This document shows positions 175-62,000 of a stretch of 64,000 nt of DNA, piece by piece; position 1 is the stretch's first letter, and every line of letters starts with the position of its first letter. Source of the DNA: Lutraria lutraria (taxonomy: Eukaryota > Mollusca > Bivalvia > Venerida > Mactridae); NCBI GenBank assembly GCA_964023205.1, contig OZ026840.1, positions 10,278,603 to 10,342,602 of the forward strand. The letters run 5' to 3'. Both the position numbers and the translations under genes were made by a program. A model generated the notes under the pieces. That model was not told where the DNA came from, ran no database searches, and was given only the letters and a program-made list of their open reading frames with translations.

Positions 175-1131
175 TTAGCTCACCTGGCACTCAGTGCCAA
201 GGTGAGCTTTTAGGATCGAGCTATATCCGTTGTCGTCCGTCCGTCGTTAGCAATTTCTTTAAATAAAGTCTCCTCCTAAACCATGCACTTGGTCAATTTC
301 CACAAAACTTCATGGCGGGTGTGTTCCTTGCTTGAAGCTCTACCAAAGTTGTTCAAAGAATTCCATTCAATGCAGAACTCTGGTTGCCATAGCAACCAGG
401 ATTTTTTTTTGAAAATCTTCTTCTCAAAAAACAGTGGACCTAGAGCTTAGATATTTTGCGTGTAACATTGTCTATTGGACCTCTACCAAGTTTGTTCAAA
501 TTATTGTCCTAGAGTCAAAATAGGCCCCGCCACGGGGGTCACTTGATTCATATAGGCTTACATAGGAAAATTTAAAAAATCTTCTTCTCCAAAACCACTA
601 GGCCTAGAGCTTATAATATATTGTATATGTAGCATTGTCTTGTGGACCTCACCCATGTTTGCTCAAATTATGGCCCTGGGGTCAAAATTGGCCCCGCCCA
701 TGGGTTTAAGGAAAATTCAAAAAATTTTCTTGTCCAAAACAATAAGGCCTAGAGCTAAGATGTTTGGTATGTAGCATTGTCTAGCAGATCTCTACTAAGT
801 TTGTTCTAATTTTGGTCAAGGGGTCAAAAATGGCCCCACCCTGGGGTCACTGGATTTATATAGGCCCATATAGGAAAATTAAAAAATTCTTCTTGTCCAA
901 AACCACGAGGCCTACAGCTTAGATATTTTGGATGATCATAGCATTTTCTTGTGGACCTCTACCAACTTTTGTTCAAATCATTACTCCATGGTCATTATTG
1001 GCCCAGCCCCGGGAGTCAGTTGATTTCAACAACTACTTGACAGTTGGGTTAGATAACTAAGTTACAAATAACTTTCCTTGATTAAATTATCCCTTAGTGT
1101 TACAGGTGAGCGATATAGGGCCATCATGGCT
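175..1131 (+). repeat. Family C Helentron-like repeat (variant ends)
   Basis: Starts at a T-run followed by AGCTCACCTGGCAC and its local inverted copy GTGCCAAGGTGAGC. The inside is made of about 160 bp diverged monomers marked by GGACCTCTACCAAGTTTG and GGTCAAAATTGGCCC. The 3' part reads CAGGTGAGCGATATAGGGCC and the terminal hairpin is cut short at TGGC (about 1130), so CCTCTTGTT is missing. Unlike other C copies (CACCAG at the 5' end, CTGGTG at the 3' end), this one has CACCTG and CAGGTG, a matched change at both ends. No coding sequence is seen. Confidence 0.8.
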
Positions 1132-1545
1132 GTAAAGTAAATATGTGTTACTGATGGTATTTTTGTTAAAAGACGAAATTCCCCTTTTTCTGCATATCAA
1201 TGCAAAGTTCCCCTACCTGAGGGCCCTGTCTCCAGTCCCCTTAATTGTAATTAGGGTCCTGATAATCCAGTTAAAAGTAGACTGACAAAAAACAAGAATG
1301 CCAAAATACGCCCGTCAAAAGGTTTGAGATACTATTAAGTGGCAAATTATATATTTTTTTAAAAATAAGCAACATTAAATTTTGTCAAAAATGCTGATTG
1401 TCAACTGATATTAACACCAAGTTTGCTGAAGATCGGTTGATTATTGTTTTGTAACAAAAGTTTTGTGTGAATTCTGTTCCTGTGTTACTGTAAAATTAAT
1501 TGTAAAATACTATTACAAATTGATGGAATAATAATTCATACAATG

Positions 1546-2930: not shown

Positions 2931-2935
2931 CATTT

Positions 2936-6650: not shown

Positions 6651-7820
6651 AGCTCACATGTCACAAAGTGACAAAGTGAGCTATTAGGATCACTCTCCGT
6701 CCGGCGTCCGGCGTCGTGCGTTGTGCGTCGTGCGTCGTCAAACTTTATGTTGTGACCACACTAGGGGCCACATTTTTGGCTCAATTTTAGCAAAACTGGG
6801 TCAGAACGTTAATATCAACAAAATCTCGGACGAGTTCGATATGGGGCCATTTGGGGTCAAAAACTAGGTCACCAGGGCCAAATAAGGGAAAACCTTGTGA
6901 ACACTTTAGAAATCACTGTTTTGAATTTATCTTCATGAAACTTTGTCAGAATGTTTATTTTAATAATATGTAGGTCAAGTTTGAAAATGGGTAATTTCTG
7001 TAGTAAAATTAGGTCACTCGGGCAAATTGCTGGAAAACCTTGTGAACACTCTAGAAGTCACTGTTTTGATTGGATGATCATGAAACCTTGTCAGAATGTT
7101 TGTCTTCATAATATCTTGGACGAGTTCGAACATGGGTCATCTTGGGTCAAAAACTAGGTCGCTAGGTCAAATCTTATGAAAAACCATGTTAACACTGTAG
7201 ATTTCACAGTTATTATTGGATCTTCACCAAACTTTGTCAAATCGTTTGTTTTAATGATATAACGGTCAAGTATTAATATGGGTCATCTGGGGTCAATAAC
7301 TAGGTCACCAGGTCAAATCTTAGGAAAACTTTGTTAACACTGTAGATGTCACAGTTTTAATTGGATCTTCACCAAACCTTGTCAAAATGTTTGCCTCAAT
7401 GATATGTGGGTGAAGGATGAACATGGGTCAGCCGGGTTCAAAAACTGGGTCACAAGGTCAAATCTTAGGTAAAAATCTTGTAAAAGCTCTAAATGTCATG
7501 GTTTTGATTGGATCTTGGCCAAACTTTGTCAGATAGTTTGTCTTAATAATATTAAGGACAAGTTCAAATATGGGTCACCTAGGGTAAAAAACCAGGTCAC
7601 AAGGTCAAATCTTAGGAAAACCTTATTAACACTGTAGATGTCAAATTTTGATCATATCTTCACCAAACCTAGTCAGACTGTTTGTCTTAATGATATGTAA
7701 GACAAATTCGAACATAGGTCGTCTGGGGTCAAAAACTAGGTCACCGGTTCAAAACAATGTTTTAATGAGTGAACAGTGATTGTCATGTGAGCGATATAGG
7801 GCCATCTTGGCCCTCTTGTT
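6651..7820 (+). repeat. Family B Helentron-like repeat, full length
   Basis: Full copy. The T-run is followed by AGCTCACATGTCACAAAGTG and GACAAAGTGAGCTATTAGG, then a GTCCGGCG-rich linker. About six monomers of about 145 bp follow (GGTCACCAGGTCAAATCTTA, AACACTGTAGATGTCAC). The 3' end is TCATGTGAGCGATATAGGGC, the hairpin GGGCCATCTTGGCCC and TCTTGTT. The 5' AGCTCACATG pairs exactly with the 3' CATGTGAGC and only imperfectly with its local partner. The 68-codon frame at 6951-7157 recurs in other copies but lies across monomers and is not a gene. Confidence 0.85.
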
Positions 7821-8451
7821 CTACAGTATATACAATAGGCAAATTTTGTCCTGACTATTTCTCATTGACTGCTGCCAGGAATTCAATAAAACTTCTCAGA
7901 AGTGATAAGTAGTTAGCCTAGTTGTGCATGCATTAAGCTTGTCTTGGTTGGTTAAATTTTCACTGAGTTATGGCCCTTTGTTGTTTTTTAGACAGTGTAT
8001 ATACAATATCTCAGTAATTACTCATAGGAATTCAATGAAACTTCACAGAAGTTATAAAAAGTAAGCCAAGTTGTGCATGCAATAACCAGGTTTCGTTTGG
8101 ATTAATTTTCACTGAGTTATGGCCCTTTGTGTTATACAATAAGTAAATTTTGTCCGTACCATTTCTCAGCAAGTACATGCAGGAATTCAGTGAAACTTCT
8201 TAGAAGTGATAAGTAGTTTGCCAAGTTGTGCATGTTCACAATAGGTTTTGTCCAAGTAAATTTTAATGAGTTATGGCCCTTTGTTATTTTTTATATAATG
8301 AATATTTAGAAACTGGTCAGGATATTTCTAAGCAACAATTTGCAGGTATTAAAAAATGAAAATGCATCATATTTCCCTCTGTAAAATGTAACAATAACTG
8401 TGTCAAGGCCGCATCTGGGGGTATTCATCACCTTTAGTGATAGTTCTAGTT
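7821..8451 (+). repeat. Family D Helitron-like repeat, 5' truncated
   Basis: Starts directly at the 3' end of the preceding family B copy, inside a D monomer (CAATAGGCAAATTTTGTCC). About three monomers of about 165 bp are followed by GCATCTGGGGGTATTC, the hairpin ATCACCTTTAGTGAT and AGTTCTAGTT. The CTAG after a hairpin is the classic Helitron-like 3' end. Confidence 0.75.
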
Positions 8452-8506: not shown

Positions 8507-9213
8507 TAGCTCACCAGAGCACGAATGTGCTCAGGGTGAGCTTTTGTGATCGCCCTGCGTCCATCGTGCGTCTAGTGGACCTCTACCAAGTTTGTTCAAA
8601 TTATGGCCCTGGGGTCAAAATTGGCCCTGCCCTGGGGTTTATTCTATTTTATATAGGAAAATTTGAAAAATCTTCTCCGAAACCACAAGGCCTAGAGCTA
8701 AGATATTTGGTACCGGTATGTAGCATTGTCTAGTGGACCTCTACCAAGTTTTTTCAAATTATTGCCCTAGGGTCAAAATTGGCTCCGCCCCGGGGGTCAC
8801 TTGATTTATATAGACTTATATAGGAAAATTTAAAAAATCTTCTCCGAAACTGCAAGGCCTAGAGCTTAGATATTTTGTATGTGGCATTGTCTAGTGGACC
8901 TCTACCAAGTTTGTTCAAATTATGTCCCCGGGGTCAAAATTAGCCCTGCCCGGTGTTTATTCTATTTTATATAGGAAAATTTAAAAAATCTTCTTCTCTG
9001 AAACCACAAGGCCTAGAGCTAAGATATTTGGTATCTAGCTTTGTCTAATGGACCTCTTTTAAATCTGTTCATATAATGGCCATGGGATAAAAAACGGCCC
9101 AGATGGGTCACTTGATCTTACTTGGACTCGTATAGAAAACTTCAACAATGTTCATCTCCAAATGACCTTTTCTCCTGGTGAGCATTTATAGGGCCATCAT
9201 GGCCCTCTTGTTT
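8507..9213 (+). repeat. Family C Helentron-like repeat
   Basis: The T-run is followed by AGCTCACCAGAGCACGAATG and GTGCTCAGGGTGAGC, then monomers of about 159 bp (GGACCTCTACCAAGTTTG). The 3' end is CTCCTGGTGAGCATTTATAG with the hairpin GGGCCATCATGGCCC and TCTTGTTT. The 5' CTCACCAG and 3' CTGGTGAG ends are complementary. Confidence 0.8.
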
Positions 9214-9750: not shown

Positions 9751-10457
9751 AGCTCACCTGATTCATCAGGTGAGCTTTTAGGATCGTTGAATGTCCGGCG
9801 TCCGGCTTACGTCGTCCGTCCACAATTAGTTTGTTTACACTCTAGCATCCGCAGCTCTTAACGAATCTTGATTAAACTTGCTCACAATGTATATGGCCAC
9901 AATGTCTTGGCTAAGTTCGATTATGGGTAAAATCGGACAATAACTTCTAGAGTTATGGGCCCTTGAATTACAAAATTTGCTATATTTAGCTTGTTTACAC
10001 TCTAGCGCCTTCATTTATTCACCAATCCTAATCATATTTTCAGTAAATGTGTATAACCAAAAGATTTTGGACAAGTTTGATTATGGGCAGAATCGGACCA
10101 GAACTTAAAGAGTTATGGGCCCTTGACTTAGAAAATTTGCTATATTTGTGTTTGTTTACACTCTTAGCACATTCAATTATTCATCAATCCTTATCATATT
10201 TACAATGAATGTTTATGACCTTACGGTTTTGGACAAGTTCAGTTATGGGTGGAATCGGACTAGAACTTCAAGAGTTATGGGCCCTTGGATTAGAAAATTT
10301 GCTACGTTTTAGCTTGTTTAACAGTATTATACCTTCATTGTTGGTTTTGATCTCAAAATCTACATAAAAATGGGTTGGAAACTATATTATCTGGTCATTA
10401 ATTATTGTGACTTTGTTCTCAGGTGAGCGATAAAGGGCCATCTTGGCCCTCTTGTTT
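9751..10457 (+). repeat. Family A Helentron-like repeat
   Basis: The T-run is followed by the perfect local palindrome AGCTCACCTGATTCATCAGG-TGAGC and a TCCGGCG linker. Monomers of about 160 bp follow (TTGTTTACACTCTAGC, GAGTTATGGGCCCTTGA). The 3' end is TCAGGTGAGCGATAAAGGGC, the hairpin GGGCCATCTTGGCCC and TCTTGTTT. Confidence 0.85.
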
Positions 10458-20060: not shown

Positions 20061-20206
20061 GCTCGCCGCCAGAATATCAAATGCCTGCCGGGCTTTGGTA
20101 AAACTTCAAACCCTCCCGAACATTTTGATATATGACACGCCTTGTTACTTTTTGGGTCCACGTTATTCGTTAACTAGGCCTCTTTTGAGAATTTTTTCCT
20201 CTACTA

Positions 20207-24624: not shown

Positions 24625-24874
24625 TTATACCCCCAGATATGAAAGATATGGGGACTATATTGGATTCACGCTTGACGGTCAGTCGGTCGGTCCTTCCGTG
24701 CGTCTGTAGACACAATTTGTCCGGACAATTTCTCAGCAACTACTTACAGGATTTCAATGAAACTTCACAGAAGTGATCAGTAGTAAGCCTAGTTGTGCAT
24801 GCTTAAAGCAATTTTCGTTTGGATTAATTTTCACTGAGTTATAGCCCTTTGTTTTTTTATACAGTGTATATATA
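24625..24874 (+). repeat. Family D repeat, left part of a split copy
   Basis: 5' end TATACCCCCAGATATGAAAG with its local partner ATATGGGGACTATA, then TCAGTCGGTCGG and the first monomer up to ACAGTGTATATA, where the LINE begins. The copy continues at 28777 with ACAATAGGCAAATTTTG. Confidence 0.8.
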
Positions 24875-26280: not shown

Positions 26281-26282
26281 GA

Positions 26283-35074: not shown

Positions 35075-38000
35075 GTAAGTTTTATTCTAAGTTTCTAAAT
35101 CTTTATCTATAAAATTTTTAGGGGCCAGGTAATGATGTAGTGGTTATGGCAGTCCTCGAATTTAGCCCTGGACCTTGGACTGAGTCCACCAAAATGGCCA
35201 TCGGTCCAGTACATTTGAAAAGGTCAGTGGTCCGATGGTCCTGTAAATTTTTAGTGATATTTTATCATGCTTTCACTGGACTGAATGTCCGGTTCTATAA
35301 AATGTTCTTTTTTCAATGTGAAGACTGTTATGGTCTCTGCCTAATAATCACTAGTCCCTCACTGCTATTGGTTTGAATCCAGCTTGGTATCAACTTTTGC
35401 ATGTGAGGAGGTTGTTTATGTAGCTTAGGCTGAAAATAAAAATAAGTTTGTTTGGAGTGCTCCTACTTACTCATGAAAATCCTAGCAAATGAATAAAATT
35501 AACTTTTGGGGGGGGGGGGGGGCATTTTTTCATCAGGTGAGCTTTTAGGATCGTTGAATGTCCGGCGTTTGTCGTCCGTCCACAATTAGTTTGTTTACAC
35601 TCTAGCAACCGCAGCTCTTAACGAATCGTGATTAAACTTGCTCACAATGTATATGGCCACAATGTCTCGGCTAAGTTCGATTATGGGCAAAATCGAACAA
35701 TAACTTCTAGAGTTATGGGCCCTTGACTTAGAAAATTTGATATATTTAGCTTGTTTACACTCTAGCGCCTTCATTTATTCACCAACCCTAATAATATTTT
35801 CAGTTAATGTGTATAACCAAAAGATCTTGGACAAGTTCGATTATGGGCGGATCCGGACCAGAACTTCAAGAGTTATGGTCCCTTGACTTTGTAAATTTGC
35901 TATATTTGAGTTTGTTCACACTCTAGCACATTTATTTATTCACCAATCCTAATCATATTTTCAGTAAATGTGTATAACCAAAATATCTTGGACAAGTTAG
36001 ATTATGGGCGGAATCGGAATAGAACTTTAAGAGTTATGGGACCTTGACTTTGAAAATTTGCTATATTTGAGTTTGTTTACACTCTAGCGCCTTCATTTAT
36101 TCACTGATCCTAATCATATTTACAATGAATGTGTATGACCTTACGGTCTTGGACAAGTTCAGTTATGGGGGGAATCGGACCACAACTTCAAGAGTTATGG
36201 GCCCTTGGATTAGAAAATTTGCTACGTTTTAGCTTGTTTAACAGTATTATATCTTCATTGTTGGTTTTGATCTCAAAATCTACGTAAAAATGGGTTATAC
36301 GAGATGGAAACTATATTACCTGGTCATTAAGTATAGTGCCTTTGTTCTCAGGTGAGCAATCAAGGGCCATCTTGACCCTCTTGTTTACTATTGTTATACC
36401 TTTAAAAAAAAATCTCTACCTATACCTACCTACCCTGTGCTAAAATTCTGGGTTAGAGCACTCCAAACAAACTTATTTTTATGTTCAGCCTTATAGAAAA
36501 TGTTGTTTCTACCTGTGATTTTTTTTAATTTCAAAATTACCTGTGGCTTTCTGAATATAGCGTGATAAATCAGAAAAGGGGAAAATATGAAATAAAGACC
36601 ATTCAATTTCAATGGATTATTTTGCATTTTAAAGCCATTTCTGGTGATTTATTTTTATGAGATGAATTTACTTGTAAATTCTTCTCATATAGCGATCACG
36701 CAGGCTATGAATTTCAACACTGCACTGCTCTCAATAGTAATCTTAGGGAGCACTTCGTACTACATTTTTTCGGTCTTTTTCGTTACTCGCTATGCTAACA
36801 GAGCGATACTGCACGCAGTTCAAACACTCATCCACAGACAGTCACCAAGCAAATACCATAGAAGCTGTTACTATATCGATTTTTCTATTTTTAGCGTTTA
36901 GGATACGCACTCTATCGGACACTTCATTGGTCATTGTTGTTTTACATACTAACTCGCTAACAGAGCGTTAAGTACTGCGCAATTATTGATTTTCCAATTT
37001 TAGCTTAGTATAATCTACTATAGGTCAAGTCAAAAGTACCTGGTATCATCAATGGGATTAAGTTGGCTAACAGTATGGGTCCCTAATTATACCCCCAGAT
37101 ATGAAATATATGGGGGCTATATTGGATTCACGCTTGACGGTCGGTCGGTCGGTCGGCCGGTCGGTCGGTCAGTCGGTCGGTCGGTCCGTGCGTCTGTAGA
37201 CACAATTTGTCCGGAGAATTTCTCAGCAACTACTTACAGGATTTTAATAAAACTTCACAGATGTGATCAGTAGTAAGCCTAGTTGTGCTAGCTTAAAGCA
37301 TTTTTCGTTCGGATTAATTTTCACTGAGTTATACCCCTTTGTTGTTTTTATACAGTATATACAATAGGCAAATTTTGTCCGGACAATTTCTCAGCAATTA
37401 CTCACAGGATCTCAATGAAACTTCACAGAAGTGATCAGTAGTAAGCCTAGTTGTGCATGCTTAAAGCAATTATTGTTCGGATTAATTTTCACTGAGTTAT
37501 AGCCCTTTGTTGTTTTTATTCAGTATATACAATAGGCAAATTTTGTCCGGACAATTTCTCAGCAATTACTCACAGGATCTCAATGAAACTTCACAGAAGT
37601 GATCAGTAGTAAGCCTAGTTGTGCATGCTTAAAGCAATTTTTGTTCGGATTAATTATCACTGAGTTATACCCCTTTGTTGATTTTATACAGTATATACAA
37701 TAGGCAAATTTTGTCCGGACAATTTCTCAGCAACTACTCACAGGATCTCAATGAAACTTCACAGAAGTGATCAGTAGTAAGCCTAGTTGTGCTAGCTTAA
37801 AGCAATTTTCGATCGGATTAATTTTCACTGAGTTATAGCCCTTTGTTGTTTTTATACAGTATATACATTAAGCAGATTTTGTCCGAACAATTTCTCAGCA
37901 ACTATTCACAGGATTTCAACGAAACTTCACAGAAGTAATAAGTAGTTAGCCTAGTTGTGCATGCTTAAATCATTTTTCATTTGGATTGATTTTCACTGAG

Positions 38001-41000
38001 TTATAGCCCTTTGTTTTTTTCTACAGTATATACAATAGGCAAATTTTGTCCTGACTATTTCTCATTGACTACTGCCAGGAATTCAATAAAACTTCTCAGA
38101 AGTGATGAGTAGTTAGCTTAGTTGTGCATGCATTAAGCTTGTCTTGGTTGGTTGAATTTTTTCACTGAGTTATGGCCCTTTGTTGTTTTTATACAGTGTA
38201 TATACAATATCTCAGTAACTACTCATAGGAATTCATTGAAACTTCACAGAAGTTATAAAAAGCAAGCCAAGTTGTGCATGCAATAACCAGGTTTTGTTTG
38301 GATTAATTTTCACTGAGTTATGGCCCTTTGTTTTATACAATTAGGTAAATTTTGTCCTTACTATTTCTCAGCAACTACATGCAGGAATTCAGTGAAACTT
38401 CTTAGAAGTGATAAGTAGTTTGCCAAGTTGTGCATGTCCACAATAGGTTTTGTCCAAGTAAATTTTAATGAGTTATGGCCCTTTGTTATTTTTTATATAA
38501 TGTATATTTAGAAACTGGTCTGGATATATCTAAGCAACAATTTGCTTCTGTGACAGTTCTAGTTTAGCATTACAATGAAGTGATAAAATGACCAGGTGTC
38601 AATAGAAAAAAATCAGAAAAGACAAAAATAAGCTTACAGATTTTTTTGCAATTTTTGTTACCCTTGATTTCTTTTAATATTTATCCCACAGTTACAAAAA
38701 TTACACCATAAAAAAGGTTACTAAAGTATAAACAACTTTTATATTTACTTTAATTTGATGAGATTAATGTTTAGTATAATAAACCAGTGATGAAGTAGAC
38801 ATGTGTCAAAACAGTACCATTTCCCAACAACCTGTATGAAGACAGTGTACCAAGTTACATTATGTATATTGACTAGGGGGCTATGAAGTAAAGGGTTAAA
38901 CTGGCAATATGATCCTTGAACTTTAATATTTGATTAAATAAACATTACTAGGTCCTTGTTTCGTTCAGAATTATTGATACAGTTTTAAACTTTGTATCGA
39001 CTCAGTGATATCCGTGCATCACAAAATTCATCTCATTTCAGGCCTTCAGGTCTTTGATTAATTTGCTGTTTGTGGACTTCTTTAATTTCTTTTCAATGGG
39101 AAATATAACTTCTTTTTGGGGGAAAATATAGCATTTTTAGGGGAAAATATAAGTTTTTTCGGCCTGTATAAGGCTGTAAAATATACGAAAAAAATCACTG
39201 TCTACTCAGATGTACAATGTACAATCCTAGGGTCTTACTTCGTCTTTAAAGATGGAAAAGTTGCCAAATGACCCTGACTGTAGGTACAGAATTGACTAAA
39301 CAATGAAATTTTAGTAGCTGTGTAATATGTGAGGATTTTTTTAGCTCACCAGAGCACAAAGTGCTCATGGTGAGCTATTGTGATCGCGTGTTGTCTGATG
39401 TCCGACATCTCCTTTTTAACCAGTTAGCCAATTTCAATGAAACTTTACAGGGATGTTCATTGCATGAAGCTCTACCAAAGTTGTTAATTTTTTTTATTTA
39501 ATTTAATTTCATTAAAAACTCTGGTTGCCATGGCAACCAATAGGAAAAATAAAAAAATTCTTCTTGTCCAAAACCACATAGCCTAGAGCTTAGATATTTG
39601 GTGTGTAGCATTGTCTAGTGGACCTCTACCATGATGTTTTTCTCTCAGGGTCTTTTTTGCTGGTGAGCGATATAGGGCCATCATGGCCCTCTTGTTTATA
39701 AAGAATGAACGATAGATAATTATTGACTAAAACTTGTGTATCTAAGCACATGTATAGTCCAACAACAACCTATGAATGATCAAAGATCAGCTAAGTCCAT
39801 TCTGGAGGGTGAGTGGCAATTTTGGAACATTTCGGTGGTTTCCGTAATATATAAATAACAGTTATTTGTCTGTTCTAATTGAGATTAAGTGCGTAGCTCA
39901 ATTGGTAAAGGTGCCAACACTTTTACTTAAATGCAGTCTGATTTAGTCAAGATGTTACAGGTTTGAACCCCATGTGAACACTTTCCTTTCCACTTTTATT
40001 GGCTTTTCCACATTTTGTTATTTCAAATTTTATTTCAATATTTGGAATGAATTTCGTGTGTATTTCATTTTATTTCATGTAATCACAATTTTAATTACTC
40101 TTCGTTAGCAGTATCTGTACTGGAACCACTGTCAGATTCTTATTATTTGCTCCGTTATAACCATAGGCAGAAGTGGTCTTAACATGACATAATTGTCTGC
40201 ATTCAGAATTTGATTTTGATCGCTAATATAATTTATACCCTTCTTAACATAAATGTACCGAAAGCGCGAGCTATGCATGATTTGAAAAAAAATAATGGCA
40301 AGATTAAGGATACAAACTAACACAATTCGGTTTAATAATGTAACCAGTCCGGCACTGATTTCAGGTCTATGTAGGCCGCCTCTTACAAAAGTGGCCTACT
40401 CAATTTTAATGTAAGGTCATGTTTAGTAATGTACTTGGTCATTGCATTACTAACCCCTATCTTAAAGAATGGAACAATCCTCAACCTTCTGTTATGACTC
40501 ACTGCTCGATTTCTGTCTATACCAGCTCCAACAATGGTATGTGTATTGTTAATAAGATATAAACATTGAAAGTATATGACATGCATGATAGATATCAAAA
40601 AGTCAATCTAGCTTGATGCTTTTCAATATCATAATTACAATGTATGAGCTTTTTAGCTCACATGTCACAAAGTGACAGGGTGAGCTTTTAGGATCAGTCT
40701 TCGTCTGGCATCGTGCGTCGTCAAACTTTATGTTGTGAACACACTAGGGGCCACATTTTAGCTCAATTTTAGCAAAACTGGGTCAGAACGTTAATATCGA
40801 CAAAATCTCGGACGAGTTCTATATTGGGCCATTTGGGGTCAAAAACTAGGTCACCAGGACCAAATAAGGGAAAACCTTGTGAACACTTTAGAAATCACTG
40901 TTTTGATTGGATCTTCATGAAACTTTGTCAAAATGTTAACTTTAATAATATGTTGGTCAAGTTTGATAATGGGTCATTTCCGGTCAAAAACTAGGTCACT

Positions 41001-44000
41001 AGGGCAAATTGCTGGAAAACCTTGTGAACACTCTAGAAGTCACTGTTTTGATTGGATGATCATGAAACCTTGTCAGAATGTTTGTCTTCATAATATCTTG
41101 GACGAGTTCGAACATGGGTCATCTTGGGTCAAAAACTAGGTCGCAAGGCCAAATCTTATGAAAAACCATGTTAACACTGTAGATTTCACAGTTATAATTG
41201 GATCTTCACCAAACTTTGTCAAATCGTTTGTTTTAATGATATAACAGTCAAGTACAAATATGGGTCATCTGGGGTCAATAACTAGGTCACCAGGTCAAAT
41301 CTTAGGAAAACTTTGTTAACACTTTAGATATAACAGTTTTGATTGGATCGTCACCAAACCTTGTCAGAATGTTTGCCTCAATGATATGTGGGTCAAGGTT
41401 AAACATGGGTCTGCCGGGATCAAAATCTGGGTCACAAGGTCAAATCTTAGGTAAAAATCTTGTAAATGCTCTAAATGTCATTTAGGTTCTAATTGGATCT
41501 TGGCCAAACCTTGTCAGATTGTTCGTCTTAATGATATTAAGGACAGGTTCAAATTTGGGTCATCTAGGGTCAAAAACTAGGTCACGAGGTCAAATCTTAG
41601 GAAAACCTTATTAACACTGTAGTTGTCAAATTTTGATTGTATCTTCACCAAACCTGTAAGACAATTAGAACATAGGTCATCTGGGGTCAAAAACTAGGTC
41701 ACGAGGTCAAATCTTAGGAAAATCTTGTCTATGCTGTAGTTTTCATGGTTTTGATTGGATCTTCACCAAATTTTGTCAGAATGTTTGTCTTATTTATATG
41801 TAAGACAAGTTCTAACATGGGTCACCTGGGGTCAAAACAATATTTTAATGAGTGAACAGTGATTGTCATGTGAGCGATATAGGGCCATCTTGGCCCTCTT
41901 GTTTATAGTTTCACTTATTTTTAGCTCACCAGAGCACGAATGTCCATCGTGCGTCGTTACGATTACGTGGCGTCCATGTTTACTTAAAACAACATCTCCT
42001 CCTACACCGCTATGCCGATTGCAACCAAACTTGGCTGGAATGATCCTTGGGTGGTCCCCTTTCAAAGTTGTTCAAAAAATTAAATTTCATTAAAAATTCT
42101 GGTTGCTATGGCAACAAATAGAAAAAACTTAAAAAATCTTCTTGTCTGAAACCACAGGGCCTAGAGCTGAGATATTTGGTATGTAGCATTGTCTAATGGA
42201 GCTCTACAAAGTTTGTTCAAATTATTCCCCTAGGGTCAAAATTGGCTCCGCCCCGGGGGTAACTCGATTTTACATAGACTTATATAGGAAATTTAAAAAA
42301 TCTTCTTGTCAAAAACTACAATGCCTAGAGCTTTGATATTTGGTGTGTAGCATAGTCTAGTGGACCTCTACCAAGTTTGTTCAAATTATTGCCCTAGGGT
42401 CAAAATTGGCCCCACCCCGGGGGTCACTTGATTTATATAGACTTATATAGGTAAATTAAAAAAGTCTTCTTCTCCGAAACCGCAAGGCCTAGAGCTTAGA
42501 TATTTTGTATGTGGCATTGTCTAGTGGACCTCTACCAAGTTTGTTCAAATTATGGCCCCGGGGTCAAAATTGGCCCTGCCCTGGGGTTTATTCTATTTTA
42601 TATAGGAAAATTTAAAAAATCTTCTTCTCCGAAACCACAAGGCCTAGAGCTAAGATATTTGGCATATAGCATTGTCCATTGAACCTCTACCAAGTTTGTT
42701 CAAATTATTGCCCTAGGGTCAAAATTGGCCCTGCCCCCGGGGGTCACTTGATTTATATAGACTTAAATAGGAAAATTTAAAAAATCTTCTTCTCCGAAAC
42801 CACAAGGCCTAGAGCTTAGATATTTTGTATGTGGCATTGTCTAGTGGACCTCTACCAAGTTTGTTCAAATTATGGCCCTGGGGTCAAAATTGGCCATGCC
42901 CTGGGGTTTTTTCTATTTTATATAGGAGAATTTAAAAAATCTTCTTCTCCGAAACCACAAGGCCTAGAGCTAAGATATTTGGTATGTAGCATTGGCTAGT
43001 GGACCTCTACCAAGTTTGTTCAAATTATGGCCCCGGGGTCAAAATTAGCCCTGCCCTGGGGTTTATTCTATTTTATATAGGAAAATTTTAAAAAATCTTC
43101 TCCGAAACCTAGAGCTAAGATATTTGGTATCTAGCTTTGTCTAATGGACCTCTTTTAAATCTGTTCATATAATGGCCATGGGATAAAAAACGGCCCAGAT
43201 GGGTCACTTGATCTTACTTAGACTCGTATAGAAAACTTCAACAATGTTAATCTCCAAATGACCTTTTCTCCTGGTGAGCATTTATAGGACCATCATGGCC
43301 CTCTTGTTTGGTGGTAGTTGTCCGCGGACGAGTAGCAAATCAGAAAAAAGAACACTGTAAAGTTACCGAATGCTCAAGATCCGTCGCTGAATCTTGTATA
43401 ATATTTTTAAAGATTGGCAACTTGTCAGTCATATCTGTAAATGACCATGCTTATTTATGTTGTTTGCATCTATCAACACCACTTTTAATTACCCCAAGTT
43501 TTGATTCATTATACAGATGACAATTCTATCAAATTAATCGTGAGTTCCTCCTTTCTTCATCGTCAGTGGTATTTAATAAAGTCTGTACCATTCAGTACGG
43601 TCCAGGTCATATTTTCCGAAAATTGCTACACACTTTACTGGATAATCACATGTTTTGATAGTATTTATGGAATATGTAGTACAATGTCATGTTACATTAA
43701 GCATTATGACCAACAAAATACCGAAGACTCGTTAATTTTCAAGAATGGGTGTTACATTTATATTTTCATGAAGTATACAAATTTCGGACAACAAATTTCG
43801 GATAACAGCACTATATCGTGCAAGCAGACGTCATCTAATGGGTATTAAATGTTAACCTGCTATAAATGTGGTATCTTAACCTTGATATTTAATCATGTGG
43901 CACACATTCATGATGAAATCTCCATTTGCCAGGGCAGCAGTGTTAGTCTTATGAAAATCAGTTTCAATTTATGCTGGATTATTGCAGGTAGTTTTACCTG

Positions 44001-47000: not shown

Positions 47001-50000
47001 CGCCCCTTTTCCGCAAACAAACACTTACAATTTAAAATCGATATTTAAATATTGACAGCTGTATAGACATGTTAGTGTCCATTCTCACGATTATAAAACT
47101 GATACAAACTTTTCGTTGATGAAACAAATTATTATTAATGCTGCTATAAGCTCATTTAAAACTATTTTATGCATAATTGAAATGTATATAGCAAAGTAAT
47201 TATATCGAAAGTACCCGTATAAGTATCGGTATAAATGCTGTATTCTTATAACCCGTTACAATCCCGTACACTAAATAACACGATTACGTTATTATTACGA
47301 CACACTGACTTTAGCTCTAAAATGTAAACACGGGTATCGAAATTCCTATATCGAAGTTCGTTTATATCGAAGTACTTTGGCAAGTCCCACGAACTTCGAT
47401 ATAACGAGTTTTGACTGTATAATAAAATACAGGACTGTATATTTACAACTCTAAAAAATACAGGGCTCTATTATAGCTTGTATACATGTACTTATAACTA
47501 GATATAAAATACAAGGCTATATGCTTGTAACTCCATAAAATACAGCGATGTATAATTACAGTAAAAAAATGGCAAGATTATGGCCTTTTCAAAAGTGGCT
47601 GTACAATTACACCCATGAATAATCCATTACACCCAGAAAAAAACTCGGCCGTAATTACTTTTGACATTTAGAGGCCTTAGTCTGTATAAGTTTATGATAT
47701 GGTTGTGATTGTTTATGTTTAAATCAAGATGCATGAAAATTATGATGCAAATTCAAAATGGCAGCACCCAGATGTGCAAAATGATAAACATATCTACAGC
47801 TCTGCTTATATCTCTATAAAACACAGGGCTGTATACTTGTTGCTCTATAAAACACAGGGCTGTATATGTGTTGCTCTATAAAACACAGGGCTGTATACTT
47901 GCTGCTCTATAAAACACAGGGCTGTATACTTGCTGCTCTATAAAACACAGGGCTGTATACTTGTTGCTCTATAAAACACAGGGCTGTATACTTGTTGCTC
48001 TATAAAACACAGGGCTGTATACTTGTTGCTCTATAAAACATAGGGCTGTATACTTGCTGCTCTATAAAACACAGGGCTGTATACTTGTTGCGGGCTGTAT
48101 ACTTGTTGCTCTATAAAACACAGGGCTGTATACTTGTTGCTCTATAAAACACAGGGCTGTATACTTGTTGCTCTATAAAACACAGGGCTGTATACTTGCT
48201 GCTCTATAAAACACAGGGCTGTATACTTGTTGCTCTATAAAACACAGGGCTGTATACTTGTTGCTCTATAAAACACAGGGCTGTATACTTGCTGCTCTAT
48301 AAAACACAGGGCTGTATACTTGTTGCGGGCTGTATACTTGTTGCTCTATAAAACACAGGGCTGTATACTTGTTGCTCTATAAAACACAGGGCTGTATACT
48401 TGTTGCTCTATAAAACACAGGGCTGTATACTTGCTGCTCTATAAAACACAGGGCTGTATACTTGTTGCTCTATAAAACACAGGGCTGTATACTTGTTGCT
48501 CTATAAAACACAGGGCTGTATACTTGTTGCTCTATAAAACACAGGGCTGTATATTTATATCTCTATGAAAGACAGGACTGTATGCTTATAACTCTATTAA
48601 GTATAGGACTATATTCTTGCAAGCACTCTTATACTTGTGGTTTCCTTTTTTCCTAACATATAAATGTTTATTGTGTTATGTTAATTAAAGTAAACCACTA
48701 TATATTTCTAGGAACCGATGGTCAAAGAAGATAAAGTTTACATCATTACGAGATGTCGTTAGATATCGTTATTTCATCGCTCAGGTAGTTATTTCGGACC
48801 ATGAAGATCATCTTGGGAGATGTACAATGGTGTCAGCCTGGGAGTCCCACAGAATTCCTCGTTCATTTACAATTAATGGTAAGCGTAATATAGAAAGTGA
48901 CCCCTCCTGTGTCCTTGTTTCCTTGTGGCAAATTTACAGACAATAAAATGCTATGCCTGGATTGAAATGCCTGGTAGGTTTTTTTAGCTCACCTGATTCA
49001 ATCAGGTGAGCTTTTAGGATCGATGAATGTCTGGCGTCTGTCGTTTGTCGTCCGTCCACAATTAGTTTGTTTACACTCTAGCATCCACAGCTCTTAACTA
49101 ATCTCAATCAAACATGGTAACAATGTATATGGCCACAATGTCTCGGCTAAGTTAAATTATGGGCAAAATTGGACAAAGACTTCAAGAGTTATGTGCCCTT
49201 GACTTAGAAAATTTGCTATTTTTAGCTTGTTTACACTCTAGCACGTTCATTTATTCACCAATACTAATTATATTTTCAGTAAATGTGTATAACCAAAAGA
49301 TCTTGGACAAGTTTGATTATGGGCGGAATCAGATCAGAACTTCCAAGAGTTATGGGCCCTTGATTTTGAAAATTTGCTATATTTTAGCTTGTTTACATTC
49401 TAGCACCTTCATTTATTCACCGATCCTAATAATATTTTTTTGTAAATGAGTATAACCAAAAGATCTTAAACAAGTTCGATTATGGGCAGAATCGGACCCG
49501 AACTTCAAGAGTTATGGGCCCTTGATTTTGAAAATTTGTTATATTTTAGCTTGTTTACACTCTAGCGCCTTTATTTATACACCGATCCTAATAATATTTT
49601 CAGTAAATGAGTATAACCAAAAGATCTTGGACAAGTTCGATTATGGGCGGAATCGGACCAGAAGTTCAAGAGTTATGGGCCCTTGACTTAGAAAATTTGC
49701 TATATTTTAGCTTGTTTAACAGTATTATACCTTCATTGTTGGTTTTGATCTCAAAATCTACGTAAAAATGGGTTATACGAGATATAAACTATATTACCTG
49801 GTCATTAATTATAGTGCTTTTGTTCTCAGTTGAGCGATCTAGGGCCATCTTGGCCCTCTTGTTTTCTCTCAGTGGGGAAATATATATACTTTATTACTTG
49901 GGGAACATGAGAATATACCAGACCCAAAAAAGGCATTAAAAGGGTCTAATGATAAGAGATGATACAACCAAGAAGATGCTTGTTTGTAATTGAAGAACTA

Positions 50001-53000
50001 AAGAAAAAATTGATTAAACAATATTTTTTTCTGGTGTTTAATGTCACCCCAAATACTGGGGTCATTTTACGACTTTCAGCTTTAATGGTGGCGGAAGACC
50101 TCAGGGAAACACATGGGTAGAACAGTCTGCCTTCCGTCAGCTAGCTGAACATCTTCCTTACATGTGAAATTTGGTCTTGAGTTGGATTTAAAGTCATAGC
50201 AGTGAAGGGCTAGTGATTGCTATTTAGAGACCAATACCACTTGTTCGGCCTCCATGGTCGAGTGGTCAAGGTCACTGACTTCAAATCACTGTAATCTCTC
50301 AATGATAGAGGGTCATGGGTTCGAGCCTATCTACCGACCATGTCTCTTTACGTGAGAAAGTAGGCAGTTGCTTACTGAGGATGGGAGTCTGGTACTGGTT
50401 CTTCCCAGGAATGATGCTTAGGTGAACTGTCCGCCTCATATGACTCTGACTGTTGAAAAGGGGCGTAAAACTCGATATAGACAAACCAATACCACTTGAC
50501 CAAGAGGCCCCCTAAAAAATAAAAAAGACATAAATATGTACAATAGTTCTTGTTTTTCAGGGACCAAGACCTCTCCAAACAAAGATGTTGTTGATGAGTT
50601 TGGACAATATGGTAAGAGTAAGAAAGAGTAAATCCTAACTTTACCTATATGTTTTAGTTAAAGGTGGGGTTTTCTGTGAATTGTTTAATTCAAGGTATGT
50701 TAAATGAAACTGTGTGGAACATGTTTTATTGCTTTGAATAAACAAAAGATTAAGTTATTATCAACTGTTCTTTGTTAGTTTAAAGCTATGGTCTTGTTAT
50801 TAGCTCACCAGAGCACAAAGTGCTCATGATGAGCTATTGTGATCGCGTGATGTCTGTCGTCCGTGCGTGTGTGCGTGCGTGCGTCAGTGCGTCAACAATT
50901 GCTTTAAACAACATCTGTTTCTTAACCAGTTGACCAATTTTAACGAAACTTTACATGGATGTTCCTTGCATGAAGCTCTACCAAAGTTGTTAAAAAAAAT
51001 TAAATTTCATTAAAAACTCAGGTTGCCAAGGCAACCAATAGGAAAAACTTTATAAGTCTTCTTGTCCAAAACCACATGTCCTAGAGCTTAGAATAAGATA
51101 TTTGGTGTGTAGCTTTGTCTAGTGGACCTCTACCAAGTTTGTTCAAATTATTGCCCTAGGGTCAAAATTGGCCCCGCCCCAGGGGTCACTTGATTTTACA
51201 TAGTCATATATAGGGAAAATTTAAAAATCTTGTCAGAAACTACAATGCTTAGAGCTTAGATATTTGGTGTGCAGCATTGTCTAGTGGACCTCTACCAAGT
51301 TTGTTCAAATGATTGCCTTAGGGTCAAAATTGGCCCAGCCCCAGGGGTCACTTAATTTTACATAGGCTCATGATAATTTTCTCTAAGAGTCTTTTTATCT
51401 GGTGAGCAATATAGGGCCCTCTTGTTTTTAGCTCACATGAGCACAAGTTCTTAGAATAAGCTTTTGTGATTGGTCTCCGGAGTGTGGCGTCGTGCAGTGT
51501 CAACTTTTACCTTGTGAACACACTAGTGGCCACATTTTTTGTTAGATTTTCACAAAACTGTGTCAGAATGTTTATATTGACATCTTGGACGAGTCTGATA
51601 ATGGGTCGTCTGGGTTAAAAAACTAGGTCACCAGGGAAATTGAAGGAAAACTTTTTGAATAATCTAGAAGTCACTGTATTAATTGGATCTTCATGAAACT
51701 ATGTCAGAATGTTTGTCTTCATGATACCTAGGACAATTCCGATCATGGGTCATTTTGGGTCAAAAACTAGGTCACCAGGTCAATTCCTAGGAGAACCTTC
51801 TTAATACTGTAGATATTGCGGTTTTGATTGGATGCCACAGCTTTAATTGGATCTTCACCAAACCTTGTCAGAATGTTTGTCTTAATGATATGAAGGATGG
51901 GTCTGAACATAGGTCAACTGGGGTAAAAAACTAGGTCAACATGTCAAATCTTAAAACAGAAACCTTGTTAATGCTGTAGATGTCACAGTTTTGATTGGAT
52001 CTTCACTAAACCTAGTCAGAATGTTTGTCTTAATGACGTGTGGAACAAGTTTCAACATGAGTCATCTATGGTCAGGCACAAGGTCATCAGGTCAAATCAC
52101 AGGAAAACATTGATATCAGCAGACCTCATGACACAGGCTCAAAAAAATGTTTTAATCAGTAAACAATAATTGTCATGTGAGTGATATAGGTCCTTCTTGG
52201 GCCTCTTGTTTATATTAAACCATGAATGGAGAATTCTTAGAGTTAAGAAGATTAAAATTGTTAGTATAGAAGTTAATTTCTATTTTGACATCATTTTCTG
52301 AACACCATTTTCAATTTTTAGATGGTAATAATCATGTCTGCAAAAGTTGGCTTGTTGACCAATCACAGATCAATATACGTATCCAAGGTAACCCATTTAA
52401 AATTCGAGATTCAAAATACAGAGATCAGACAATCAGTATTAAGTGTAAACCTGTTGATCATCATTATAGAGATGTAAGTATTGTAACTTATATTATCTAC
52501 AGTCAAAACTCGTTATATCGAAGTTCGTGGGACTTGCCAAAATACTTCGATATAAACGAACTTCGATATAGGAATTCCGATACCCGTGTTTACATTTTAG
52601 AGCTAAAGTCAGTGTGTCGTAATAATAACGTAATCGTGTTATTTAGTGTACGGGATTGTAACAGGTTATAAGAATACAGCATTTATACCGATACTTATAC
52701 GGGTAATTTCGATATAATTACTTTGCTATATACATTTCAAATATGCATAAGATAGTTTTAAATGAGCATATGGCAGCATTAATAATAATTTGTTTCATCA
52801 ACGAAAAGTTTGTATCAGTTTTATAATCGTGAGAATGGACACTAACAGGTTTATACAGCTGTCAATATTTAAATATCGATTTTAAATTGTGTTTGTTTGC
52901 GGAAAAGGTGCGAACATTTCTTTTGTAAGTTGGCGACATAATTGGTTCGACATAGATGGTCACTTTATAGTTCGGACCGAAAATCTACTTCAATATATAA

Positions 53001-56000: not shown

Positions 56001-59000
56001 AAGTAAGGTTATATCGGCCTATACCAAGAGGTTGTGAGTTCCAAGCCCGGGCAAGGCTCACACTGTCCGTGACAAATTTGACCAAAGATATTACATCCGA
56101 TATTAAATTGTCCTCCACCTCTGAATTATGTGGGGTAGCTTCGCAGTAGGATTTTTGTAATGGTTAAGGCCTAAATGAAGTCCAGGGAAGCTGGTTGGGG
56201 AACTGCTTGCCATGATGTAACTGAAATAATGTTGAAAATGGTATTATATCCAATGAAATAAACAAATAGAAATTAATGGATGATAAGGAATGTGTGTGAT
56301 CAGTTAATACTTCAAGAGCCTGAAATGGGTAGGTTATTTGATCAAGTTAAATTCATTCTATTGTCTGTTTGCAGGTTTTAGAGAGAGGCAAATCTGAGCC
56401 TCAGGTACAAGGTAATTATGGTTGTGTATTTACGCCTGATTGCTCAATGATATTTATGGTTCAGTCACTGGATCCTGAACACATAGTAAGTGATAATACT
56501 GGCTAGATAAGTCTGTTTCACCTTTTCCTATATGATCGTTTGTTATCAAATAGAAGAAAATCATTTCCTGAATAAAACAAATTTCAGGGTTCACTATTAA
56601 ATCTGTTAGGGCTGTGTGATGTAACAGTTGCTATGGGTTTTTAGCTCACATGTCACAAAGTGACAAAGTGAGCTATTAGGATCACTCTCTGTCCGGCGTC
56701 GTGCGGTGTGTGTCGTGCGTCGTCAAACTTTATGTTGTGACCACACTAGGGCCACATTTTTGGCTCAATTTTAGCAAAACTGGGTCAGAACGTTAATATC
56801 AACAAAATCTCGGACGAGTTTGATATTGGGCCATTTGGGGTCAGAAATTAGGTCACCAGGGCCAAATAAGGGAAAACCTTGTGAACACTTTAGAAATCAC
56901 TGTTTTGACTGTATCTTCATGAAACTTTGTCAGAATGTTTATTTTAATAATATGTAGGTCAAGTTTGAAAATGGGTAATTTCTGTAGTAAAATTAGGTCA
57001 CTAGGGCAAATTGCTGGAAAACCTTGTGAACACTCTAGAAGTCACTGTTTTGATTGGATGATCATGAGACCTTGTCAGAATGTTTGTCTTCATAATATCT
57101 TGGACGAGTTCGAACATGGGTCATCTTGGGTTAAAAACTAGGTCGCTAGGTCAAATCTTATGAAAAACCATGTTAACACTGTAGATTTCACAGTTATTAT
57201 TGGATCTTCACCAAACTTTGTCAAATCGTTTGTTTTAATGATATAATGGTCAAGTATAAATATGGGTCATCTGGGGTCAATAACTAGGTCACCAGGTCAA
57301 ATCTTAGGAAAACTTTGTTAACACTGTAGATGTCACAGTTTTAATTGGATCTTCACCAAACCTTGTCAAAATGTTTGCCTCAATGATATGTGGGTCAAGG
57401 ATGAACATGGGTCAGCCGGGTTCAAAAACTGGGTCACAAGGTCAAATCTTCGGTAAAAATCTTGTAAAAGCTCTAAATGTCATGGTTTTGATTGGATCTT
57501 GGCCAAACCTTGTCAGATTGTTTGTCTTAATGATATTAAGGACAAGTTCAAATATGGGTCACCTAGGGTGAAAAACCTTAGGAAAACCTTATTAACACTG
57601 TAGATGTCAAATTTTGATCGTATCTTCACCAAACCTAGTCAGACTGTTTGTCTTAATGATATGTGAGACAAATTCGAACATAGGTCATCTGGGGTCAAAA
57701 ACTAGGTCACCGGTTCAAAACAATGTTTTAATGAGTGAACAGTGATTGTCATGTGAGCGATAAAGGCCATCTTGGCCCTCTTGTTTACAACAACTAGCAT
57801 ACTTAAATAATTAAAATGTAGTGTTTATTATTCGGACTTACCAGATGTATATGTGAAATCAAGCTCCTAGTAAATTAATGATATTATTTTAGTTAAGTAT
57901 AATATAAGTTATTGTAAAACTTGTAAAAACAGTATGCAGATTCGTATAATTGTGTAAGCTAAGTATAATATAAATAATTGCAAAACTTGAAAACTGAACG
58001 CATATTCATATTATAGTTTTCACATTTTCTTCTTTCTAATAAATGAAGAGGAATGCTAACTGGTCTGTATTTAAATATCCAATTGTTAAAGATCAGATTA
58101 AAAAAAAACATGATTGAATTAGTTATATCTGTGCTATGTGATTCTGATGTCTGAAAGTAGAGTTGTTTATTTTCATCCAAAGAAAGTAGCAATAAAAAAG
58201 AACATTCCTGATTGAAAAATGTCTTGACAATTTTAGGTAGGGGATTTAAATTTTATGGTCATCAAACAAAGAAGGTAACCTAAGAGACTGGTTTGGTAAT
58301 TGAAGGACCATTTGTCTTTGTAGAGATTGGTATACCTTGGAAGAAATATCTGTGAAATTTTAAGGGAAATCTACCTGTTGGTCAAAGGAAGAATTTGTTC
58401 ATGATGACTGTCAGTTGTTTCTGTTCAGTCAAACTAGAATTAGCAGCCACCTCCAAATAAAGGCCACCTTGTGAATAACGGACATTCATGCCAAAACCGC
58501 CATTGATTATTTAGAACAAAATGACCTCTGAATAAAGGCCACATGTCAGTATAGGCCACATTTTGTCTTTCCCAAGTGTGGCTTTTGTTCCAAGGTTTGA
58601 CTGTATTTAGTTTGTAAATTTCATTCTATGTATGTTTAACAGGGTTTTCAGATGGAACTCTTTGTAGATGATAATAAGTCAGGTGATAGTACATCAGGGA
58701 ACCATCCACCTCCGCAACTACTTGGTTACGCATTTATTCTGCCGTTAGATATGCACCCTAGTGTAGGTAGTAGGTCTGTTCCACTTATTAACCTCAGACA
58801 CAAACCATTTGGACAGATCAGTTGTAAGTATCAGTTGTTGTAATATCAATCATATCATTTAACTGTAAGTCAGGAGTCAGAAGGGATACGGACATTTGCC
58901 CCCAAATGAAAAATGGTCATGTGGACATTTGCCCCCCAAATGAAAAATGGTCATGTGGACATTTGCCCCCCAATGAAAAATGGTCATGTGGACATTCCCC

Positions 59001-62000
59001 CCCCCCCCCCCCCCCCCCCCTTTGTCTACATTATGTCTACAGACCTCAATGTGTGACTTTGAACCCTGAGCGTGACACTTGTTCTCTGTGATTATTTTGT
59101 TAAATGACATTGAACAGCTACTATATAAGTGACCCCCTAAAATCCACATGATGTCCAATCTCTTAATTGTTTTATTGCCCCTAATGAAATAAATCCTGTC
59201 TGGTCCTGGTCAGCTGAGTGTCTGTAGACTTGACAGCTAGTCGACGAATAGTGTCAAAAATTTAATTGATAATTATTTTATGACTAAATTCCTCTAGTTT
59301 TTATAAGCATATAGTAATTAATTATGTAAACATAAGCTAGTCTATCAATGACCCTGTCTGTTTTATTACCACTTACTGTGGAATCAGGGGTCTTGCTAGT
59401 CCATAAGTCTCATGCCTCGCATTCCTGATTCCTTGTTTTTAAGATGTTGTATCTAAACCATTTGTACTCCATAGCAAGAAGTTACTTGCCGGAGTACAAG
59501 GTTTATACTGGCACAGAATCCTGAAGCTCTGGTCTTGTTAGATATTTTCATGTAAAAGTGTCTGAGGCATTGTTAGATAATCTGCGAAAAAACAACTAGT
59601 GGGTATTAAAAGTTGTTATTATTAACACTATAAATATTACAAATGAGTGTCTTCAAAATGCCTTGTGAATTTCATTAATACCAAGGTGCCAGATACAAGG
59701 GAAAGAAAGTCCCTTGATTTCATTTGTCTTTAATCATCTGATTGTAACTTCACTGTTTTTTAGCTCACCTGATTCATCAGGTGAGCTTTTAGGATCGTTG
59801 AATGTCCGGCGTCCGTCCACAATTAGTTTGTTAAACTCTAGCAACCGCAGCTCTTAATGAATCGTGATTAAACTTGCTCACAATGTATATGGCCACAATG
59901 TCTCGGCTAAAATCGATTATGGGCAAAATCGGACAATAACTTCTAGAGTTATGGGCCCTTGAATTACAAAATTTGCTGTATTTAGCTTGTTTACACTCTA
60001 GCGCATTCATTTATTCACAAATCCTAATCATATTTTCAGTAAATGTGTATAACCAAAAGATCTTGGACAAGTTTGATTATGGGAGGAATCGGACCAGAAG
60101 TTTAAGAGTTATGGGCCCTTGACTTAGACAATTTGCTATATTTTAGCTTGTTTACATTCTAGCGCCTTCATTTATTCACGGATCCTAATCATATTTACAA
60201 TGAATGTGTATGACCTGATGATTTTGGACAAGTTCAGTTATTGGTTGAATCGGACCACAACTTCAAGATTTATGGGCACTTGGATTAGAAAATTTGCTAC
60301 GTTTTAGCTTACAAGTTTAACAGTATTATACCTTCATTGTTGGTTTTGATCTCAAAATCTACGTAAAAATGAGTTTTACGAGATGGAAACTATATTACCT
60401 GGTCATTAATTATTGGCCTTTGTTCTCAGGTGAGCGATAAAGGGCCAATGTGGCCCTCTTGTTTACAGTTACCTACCTCATTGTGAAACCTATGTCGTGT
60501 CATAATTTTGATATGTCGGTTTCCTATAAAAACTACTGGAAGACTTCTAGAAAACCTTTAGACATTGGCCATCGTGGAATGGGTAGTAGCTTTGGTGCCA
60601 AGAAGTGAGTAAATTCTCTCCATTTTAACATAATTATACTTTTGGCCTCTACATAACAGTTCATCTTTAATATGCCCCAGCATCAAATACAGGGCACATG
60701 GTCATTGTCTTGTCCGTCCGTCTGTCCGAGGTTCAGTCAAGCTGCCTCTGGGGGCATATGTATTTATTGATCGCAGTATCTTGTTTAGCTACATTTTGTT
60801 AAATGGTTTCCTTGTTTCATCAATATGTAACTTTTTAGCTCACCTGATTCATCAGGTGAGCTTTTAGGATCGTTGAATGTCCGGCGTACGGCGTCCGTCT
60901 CCGTCCACAATTAGTTTGTTTACACTCTAGCATCCGCAGCTCTTAATGAATCGTGATTAAACTTGCTCGCAATGTGTATGGCCACAATGTCTCGGCTAAG
61001 TTCGATTATGGGCAAAATCGGACAATAACTTCTAGAGTTATGGGCCCTTGAATTACAAAAATTGCTATATGTAGCTTGTTTACACTCTAGCGCCTTTATT
61101 TATTCACCAATCCTAATCATATTTTCAGTAAATGTGTATAACCAAAAGATCTTGGACAAGTTTGATTATGGGCTGAATCGGACCACAACTTCAAGAGTTA
61201 TTGGCCCATGACTTAGAAAATTTGCTCTATTTGAGTTTGTTTACACTCTAGCACATTCATTTATTCATCAATCCTAATAATATTTTCAGCAAATGAGTAT
61301 AATCAAAAGATCTTGGACAAGTTCGATTATGGGCGGAATGGGACCACATCTTCAAGAGTTATGGGCCCTTGACTTAGAAAATTTTCTATATTTTAGCTTG
61401 TTTACACTCTAGCGCATTCATTTATTCAATGATCCTACTCATATTTACAATGAATGTTTATGACCTTACGGTATTGGACAAGTTTAGTTATGGGTGGAAT
61501 CAGACCAGAACTTCAAGAGTTATGGGCCCTTGGATTAGAAAATTTGCTACGTTTTAGCTTGTTTAACAGTATTGTACCTTCATTGTTGGTTTTGATCTCA
61601 AAATCTACATAAAAATGGGTTATACGAGTTGGAAACTATATTATCTGGTCATTAATTATTGTGACTTTGTTCTCAGGTGAGCGATAAAGGGCCATCTTGG
61701 CCCTCTTGTTTTATATGCCCGTCACAGACGGGACGTATTATGTGAAACCCCATGACGGGCGGCGGCGTCATCCAGCACATTGTCCGGACTCTAATTCAAA
61801 TAGTGTACATCAGATCTTCACCAAACTTGGTCAGAAGTTGCATCTAGATTATATCTAGGTCAAGTTCGAATATGGATTATTTAGGTTTTTTTTGTTTGTT
61901 TTTTTGAGAACAAATGAGACTAACTGTACCATTATTTATATCAGTGCATATATACATATATGTATATACCTTATAAGTTTTTTTGTTTTTGCTGACTTTG

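Follow-up and report, generated by a model that had tools for sequence, protein, structure and literature searches.

A 64,000-nucleotide window of the genome of the bivalve Lutraria lutraria (contig OZ026840.1) harbours families of short repeats, here called A to D, that are very probably non-autonomous Helentrons (HINEs) with a matched pair of ends. The first bases of each element, its head, are complementary to a tail motif just upstream of the hairpin at the 3' end, and head and tail change together from family to family. This co-change is real, yet it stems from few events. Matched, co-changing ends are an already described trait of the Helentron/Helitron2 group. An earlier note on this window had supposed that the covariation may be undescribed; that claim falls because Bao & Jurka (2013, PMC3627910), in the part dealing with termini, report compensatory changes together with a model of termination.

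Ends were counted in the 13 A–C elements of the window that retain both of them (Table 1), each named by its first position. Left out were copies with a missing or decayed end (1545-2002, 13615, ~20100-21269 and 35525-36385), a decayed C head on the minus strand at 3611 and remnants of bodies that lack ends near 5400-5710 and 54560-55880; TCAGGTGAG at 23034 was excluded as not being an element. All 13 begin, after T's, with the head AGCTCAC[C/A][T/A]G, whose sequence GCTCACNNG complements a 9-bp motif immediately upstream of the 3' hairpin. The right end reads C-N-N-GTGAGC, followed by a GGGCC hairpin and then by CTCTTG before TT. This 3' palindrome has a predicted energy of -7.5 kcal/mol in 8 of the 13 and of -5.5 in 56643, and is weakened or lost in the other four (177, 41923, 50802 and 51430). 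Five T's precede 12 of the 13 heads (gttatt at 50802), and TT follows the end in 12 of 13, element 177 being decayed there. The A–C bodies are related to arrays of ~142–166-bp repeats. Across A–D the central tandem repeats measure ~142–168 bp, some elements carry a GTCC-like microsatellite, and the terminal sequence is CTCTTG or TTCTAG.

These elements show the inverted subterminal repeats (subTIRs), 5' hairpin arm, 3' palindrome, tandem repeats or microsatellite and lack of coding capacity that characterize HINEs, as well as the 8-15-bp asymmetric terminal inverted repeat (ATIR) and hairpins at both ends that define Helitron2. Among 122 stop-to-stop frames of at least 66 amino acids in the window, no Rep/helicase domain was found at E 0.01. 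We file them as Helentrons because their anatomy agrees with the descriptions of termini in PMC4067079, PMC7492417 and PMC3627910, in keeping with what the earlier note had proposed, although under the rule of Thomas et al., which asks for at least 11 identical bp of subTIR per family, A–C with 9-10 bp fall short and D has 12 bp. A canonical Helitron (Helitron1, with 5' TC, 3' CTRR, insertion between A and T and no inverted repeats) was rejected for A–C because they start with AGCTCAC, end with CTCTTG and lie between T and T. A miniature inverted-repeat derivative of a cut-and-paste transposon, which would have terminal inverted repeats at its very ends and a target duplication, was likewise rejected, the 3' inverted copy ending ~26 bp inside the 3' end. 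Scans of the window with Rfam (gathering threshold) and for tRNAs gave no matches. Relatives outside this genome came neither from most pattern scans of viral contigs nor from the scan of genome contigs; one pattern scan gave 68 viral-contig loci, which we took for chance owing to the shortness of the pattern, with GTGAGC within 60 bases of the head in 3 of the 68 and the letters GGCCCTCTTGTT in none.

The complementarity of each element's own two ends is perfect over 9 bp in 11 of the 13 and extends to 10 bp in four of these (three A, one C); the imperfect pairs, 48986 and 51430, contain one mismatch and one G-T, respectively. A shuffled 60-nucleotide tail offers as long a complement in 0-1 of 300 trials for 12 elements, and in 69 of 300 for 48986. 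Only columns 8 and 9 of the nine paired positions vary, and they take three states (CT, AT and CA), which we use as names of the end types. When tails are swapped between end types, the mean match drops from 8-9 to 6-8 of 9, and in the flanking columns 11-14 just 19 of 52 cells match. Across the eight distinct rows, 98.6% of cells pair and the covariation score is 0.242; shuffles give 89.2% and 0.078, and none of 500 reached either observed value, although this control ignores relatedness. An exact permutation by family gives 4/120 with five subfamilies and 2/24 with four.

The head also has a potential partner close by. A local 5' hairpin folds in 11 of the 13 elements, in B and C by way of another inner stem, and is not formed in 41923 and 51430. 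Its energies run from -10.4 to -15.2 kcal/mol, apart from -6.7 (41923) and -3.3 (51430), and those of the distant duplex from -11.0 to -14.0, apart from -8.9 (48986). Conservation of this hairpin alone, with the distant match as a by-product, would accord with the similar stability of the two structures in most copies and with the local arm of family A, which is the same as its 3' subTIR, but the variable columns speak so clearly otherwise that we give this reading very little credence. Columns 8-9 fit the distant arm in all 13 elements (A 4/4, A2 1/1, B 3/3, B2 1/1, C 4/4) and with the local arm in only 7 (A 4/4, A2 1/1, B 0/3, B2 0/1, C 2/4), and both 41923 and 51430 keep the distant match without a local arm. 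The family-specific bases in B and in part of C follow the distant end and not the adjacent arm, as the earlier note had seen. The retained hairpin together with the distant match fits a switch between alternative pairings, as Bao & Jurka proposed.

End types are not tied to the sequences that surround them. The bodies form three clades, one of A, one of B with 51430 and one of C with 177. Element 177 joins a C body to CT ends (CACCTG/CAGGTG, as had been noted for a copy placed at 175), and 51430, with AT ends, has a B body but a left flank resembling that of C; in both the ends still match, so end type is not fixed by flank or body. This reassortment bears on the view that the founders simply had perfect ends and that the copies are too young to have diverged, with no continuing selection needed. 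Such co-inheritance accords with the sharing of ends by most copies within a family, with the many listed variants that look like single changes from CT, AT or CA and with the permutation value of only 1/6 over the three body clades, but it does not account for left flanks, bodies and end types that reassort between families while the ends stay matched. Moreover, when the arms changed equally and independently in a toy simulation, run over a tree of five leaves and branches of equal length, all five subfamilies ended fully complementary at a frequency of 8.75e-5 with two changes per arm and 1e-5 with three. We consider co-inheritance alone unlikely.

The same ends recur throughout the 728.5-Mb genome (71 contigs). 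A strict head pattern found 7598 heads (3658 forward, 3940 reverse) and a strict tail pattern 4791 tails (2358 forward, 2433 reverse), with none for either reversed-pattern control. Columns 8-9 read AV in 59 and KN in 88 of the 7598 heads, and CT, AT and CA together make up at most ~98% of them, the CS class lying outside this count. Among the matches listed, 100 of 100 heads are CT, AT or CA and 97 of 100 tails are CATG, CAGG or CTGG; the three odd tails among these first 100 (CTTG, CCTG and CGGG) have no listed partner head. On contig C1, the 100 listed heads and 66 listed tails up to 14.37 Mb were paired when on the same strand with the tail 0.25–2.6 kb downstream, and the types agree in 37 of 38 pairs, with a maximum of 34 in 10,000 shuffles. 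This sample is mostly AT (32 of 38) and tests CT (4) and CA (2) weakly, and the pattern misses C tails of the form GTGAGCATTTA. In the sole disagreement a CA head was joined to a CAGG tail at a distance of 2508 bp, and the two may not belong together. A 264-kb stretch made up of the window and its flanks of 100 kb (C9:10178603-10442602) has 30 heads, of which a script could assign tails to 22; the types agree in 20 of these. The remaining two heads lie at 100176 and 150801 of the stretch and correspond to window elements 177 and 50802. They were given a neighbour's tail owing to damage in their 3' hairpins, and each agrees in type with the tail of its own element.

For the two further families that the earlier note had listed, D and E, the outcome is mixed. 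In the window an exact D pair occurs only between different copies: the 5' end at 24627 differs by one C from its likely tail, and the tail of 37089 is degraded. The 12-bp pair nevertheless stands genome-wide. Its motif occurs at 2797 sites (1389 forward, 1408 reverse; 10 and 13 in the control), and among the first 100 of these, 32 neighbouring pairs less than 2.6 kb apart run minus then plus and one runs plus then minus, an excess that argues that the pair belongs to single copies. The D head/tail duplex reaches -14.1 kcal/mol, compared with -8.3 for its local hairpin. E does contain a short inverted pair, of 8 nucleotides opposite 9 with one bulge, but in a single 86-bp window copy with no visible 3' hairpin, and E is not established as a family.

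How the ends might come to be matched can be framed in terms of rolling-circle transposition. In steps drawn from the literature, the 3' subTIR of the displaced single strand would pair with the 5' end and open the 5' hairpin, and this pairing, along with the 3' hairpin, would mark where the Rep/helicase stops and joins; a family would then be mobilized only if both ends carried the same version. We judge strand pairing of this kind to have an even chance of being the mechanism. The main competitor holds that the ends match as inverted double-stranded sites of the same Rep, the co-change reflecting a change in Rep specificity with no pairing of ends. Inverted identical motifs always look complementary, and three discrete types with few others could correspond to three protein specificities; yet the local 5' arm, a potential site too, ignores the family columns in B and follows them in two of four C copies, and Rep sites alone do not explain why the 5' hairpin is kept in 11 of 13. 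This competitor seems to us a serious possibility, if somewhat short of probable. Sequence alone cannot separate it from strand pairing, since the same covariation would arise if one Rep bound two copies of its site; of the selection for end pairing that had been read into this window, the co-change stands and the pairing itself is not distinguished. We tentatively suggest, with about the confidence given to shared Rep sites, that the end pair may act as a compatibility key: flanks and bodies would be exchanged, and only recombinants with agreeing ends would transpose. If so, three main keys (CT, AT and CA) would sit on reassorted bodies, with hardly any mixed copies.

Several observations weigh against the favoured explanation. 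The independent events are few: three states in two columns, so that the stepwise series originally described stems from a small number of changes. Double-change pairs (2) are not above shuffles (182 of 500), and the permutation over body clades is unimpressive, as given above. For an AG head, present at four places (B-type HINEs, L110-L113 on contigs C6, C12, C13 and C17), a CCTG tail was predicted beforehand, but the prediction failed: all three readable tails had the ancestral CATG, and none was seen in the fourth copy over 1.8 kb. Beyond their 3' ends the three copies with tails are 95–99% identical for 487–505 bp, which suggests a single insertion that was multiplied as part of a larger repeat and whose head changed after transposition. 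Because of this shared flank the test says little about separately transposed copies. An AC head, at two places 99% alike over 1808 bp, had no tail in 1.8 kb. Among the variant heads examined (AG and AC) there was thus no compensated fourth end type. Finally, single-strand pairing in the cell is here a prediction from sequence.

Candidate autonomous partners are predicted from the Helitron_like_N profile, which has 13 matches in the genome (two at one place; L097-L109, including C14:12316943 and C10:15327420). Some copies look recent, with identities of 99.1% between L097 and L100 and 98.7% between L102 and L104 and open frames of up to 2009 amino acids. Also counting against the interpretation favoured above, no A–C ends were found at the single Rep locus read over 15.5 kb, on C14. 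There, a 14-bp inverted pair flanks most of the frame, without a T-run or 3' hairpin.

Within the window, Pfam found in the 122 frames the domains of a long interspersed nuclear element (LINE) and one weak C2 match, and nothing else. The LINE (25069-28358, plus strand) has endonuclease and reverse transcriptase in separate frames and sits between the D-type 5' end at 24627 and the D-type 3' end at 29335. The only organism-named protein among the 120 listed relatives of this LINE is from Pinctada imbricata (46% identity, rank 114); together with the HINE anatomy it points to a probable mollusc host. The GDE1-like C2 match at ~58643–58824 (plus strand; E 1.6e-5) scores 25.7 bits, under the Pfam cut-off of 27, and has splice-like borders; it is a probable host exon, and its frame had no match in PDB.

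Table 1. HINEs and related ends in the 64,000-nucleotide window (window coordinates).
Feature	Position	Strand	Remarks
HINE subfamily A2	177..1130	+	C-type body; ends CT/AG; head AGCTCACCTG; tail CAGGTGAGC (1103-1111); mutations in 3' hairpin; end position uncertain
HINE family B	6651..7818	+	head AGCTCACATG; tail CATGTGAGC; 145-bp central repeats; 3' hairpin GGGCCATCTTGGCCC; end CTCTTG
D-type 3' subTIR ATCTGGGGGTAT	8413..8424	+	hairpin and TTCTAG come next; no 5' end of its own seen
HINE family C	8508..9210	+	head AGCTCACCAG; tail CTGGTGAGC
HINE family A	9751..10454	+	head AGCTCACCTGA; local arm TCAGGTGAGC, same as tail TCAGGTGAGC
D-type 5' end ATACCCCCAGAT	24627..24638	+	its likely tail, at 29335-29345, lacks one C; LINE in between
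D-type 5' end	37089..37100	+	own 3' end near 38549 degraded
HINE family C	39343..39694	+	shortest of the 13
HINE family B	40655..41901	+	
HINE family C	41923..43306	+	local 5' arm deleted; distant match intact
HINE family A	48986..49861	+	tail CAGTTGAGC with one mismatch
HINE family C	50802..51424	+	3' hairpin damaged; five T's between end and next HINE head
HINE subfamily B2	51430..52208	+	AT/AT ends; body of B type, left flank C-like; decayed local arm
HINE family B	56643..57783	+	
HINE family A	59762..60461	+	
E short inverted pair ATGCCCCAG / CTGGGGGCAT	60672..60757	+	one-base bulge; no 3' hairpin seen
HINE family A	60837..61708	+	

Two further features of the window concern tandem repeats. 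Two B-type parts, a left one at ~13615-13830 and a right one at 20086-21269, may belong to a single element interrupted by ~6 kb, an interval with 351- and 352-bp tandem arrays near both borders. Homogeneous tandem arrays also occur at 62248-63385 (37 bp, ~31 copies) and at 47812-48587 (31 bp).

The HINEs of this region show a bias in orientation, almost all of them pointing the same way over ~150 kb. With one fixed pattern, the 264-kb stretch has 35 plus and 5 minus A–C tails. The five on the minus strand are confined to 199–256 kb of the stretch, an interval that also holds two plus tails; between 53 and 198 kb every tail, 33 in all, is plus. The decayed C head at window 3611 is on the minus strand. 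Outside the elements, the window has similar numbers of T- and A-tracts of at least four bases (452 and 440). On C1, neighbouring heads are co-oriented in 18 of 21 cases under 10 kb (8 of 5000 shuffles) and in 29 of 38 under 30 kb (0 of 5000), and this fades to 13 of 24 at 30–100 kb and to 11 of 37 at more than 100 kb. Neighbours of different families under 30 kb are co-oriented in only 10 of 16 cases, so part of the effect may come from local duplication; transcription or replication direction are other suggested causes. Genome-wide, head strands stand at 48:52.

The matched ends open no new kind of system. Two elements in the literature, Helitron-1N1_CQu and Helitron-1N2_CQu, are presumably from Culex, to go by their names. 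Between these related elements compensatory base mutations are described in the section on Helitron2 termini of Bao & Jurka (2013, PMC3627910), where ATIRs of 8–15 bp are given, the 5' one within a hairpin and the 3' one just upstream of the 3' hairpin, and where pairing of the ends is modelled to melt the 5' hairpin and set the end of replication. Our elements share the 5' hairpin built on the ATIR and the compensatory changes; in the literature compared, as far as the portions concerned extend, the published compensatory evidence for the end-pairing model is that one pair, whereas here three types recur in thousands of copies of one genome, and the heads and tails counted above form a large natural data set for that model.

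The closest likeness in anatomy is to Cg_HINE of the oyster Crassostrea gigas (Vojvoda Zeljko et al. 2020, PMC7492417), which, in the paper's account of HINE structure, has a 5' subTIR with a complementary inverted repeat, a GTCY/GTCC microsatellite, satellite-like central repeats, a 3' subTIR followed by a palindrome, an oligo-T target and an autonomous partner not identified. Its subTIR is normally 11-12 bp, compared with 9-10 bp in A–C, and that account of anatomy includes no covariation analysis. According to the relevant part of a further survey, subTIRs are present in 257 of 751 oyster Helitrons (PMC7992393). DINE-1/Helentron elements, in the passages on structure of Thomas et al. (2014, PMC4067079), have subTIRs, an inverted repeat nested with the 5' subTIR, a 3' stem-loop, insertion at TT and families named by their subTIRs, and differ from A–C in the length of identical subTIR by which a family is drawn. 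The Fusarium elements FoHeli1-5, in the sections of PMC5148889 on their termini, resemble ours in their subgroup-specific 5' ends and in an inverted repeat upstream of the 3' end; joined ends, indicating a circular intermediate, are evidenced in one subgroup, and these elements differ in being autonomous and fungal and in having other termini.

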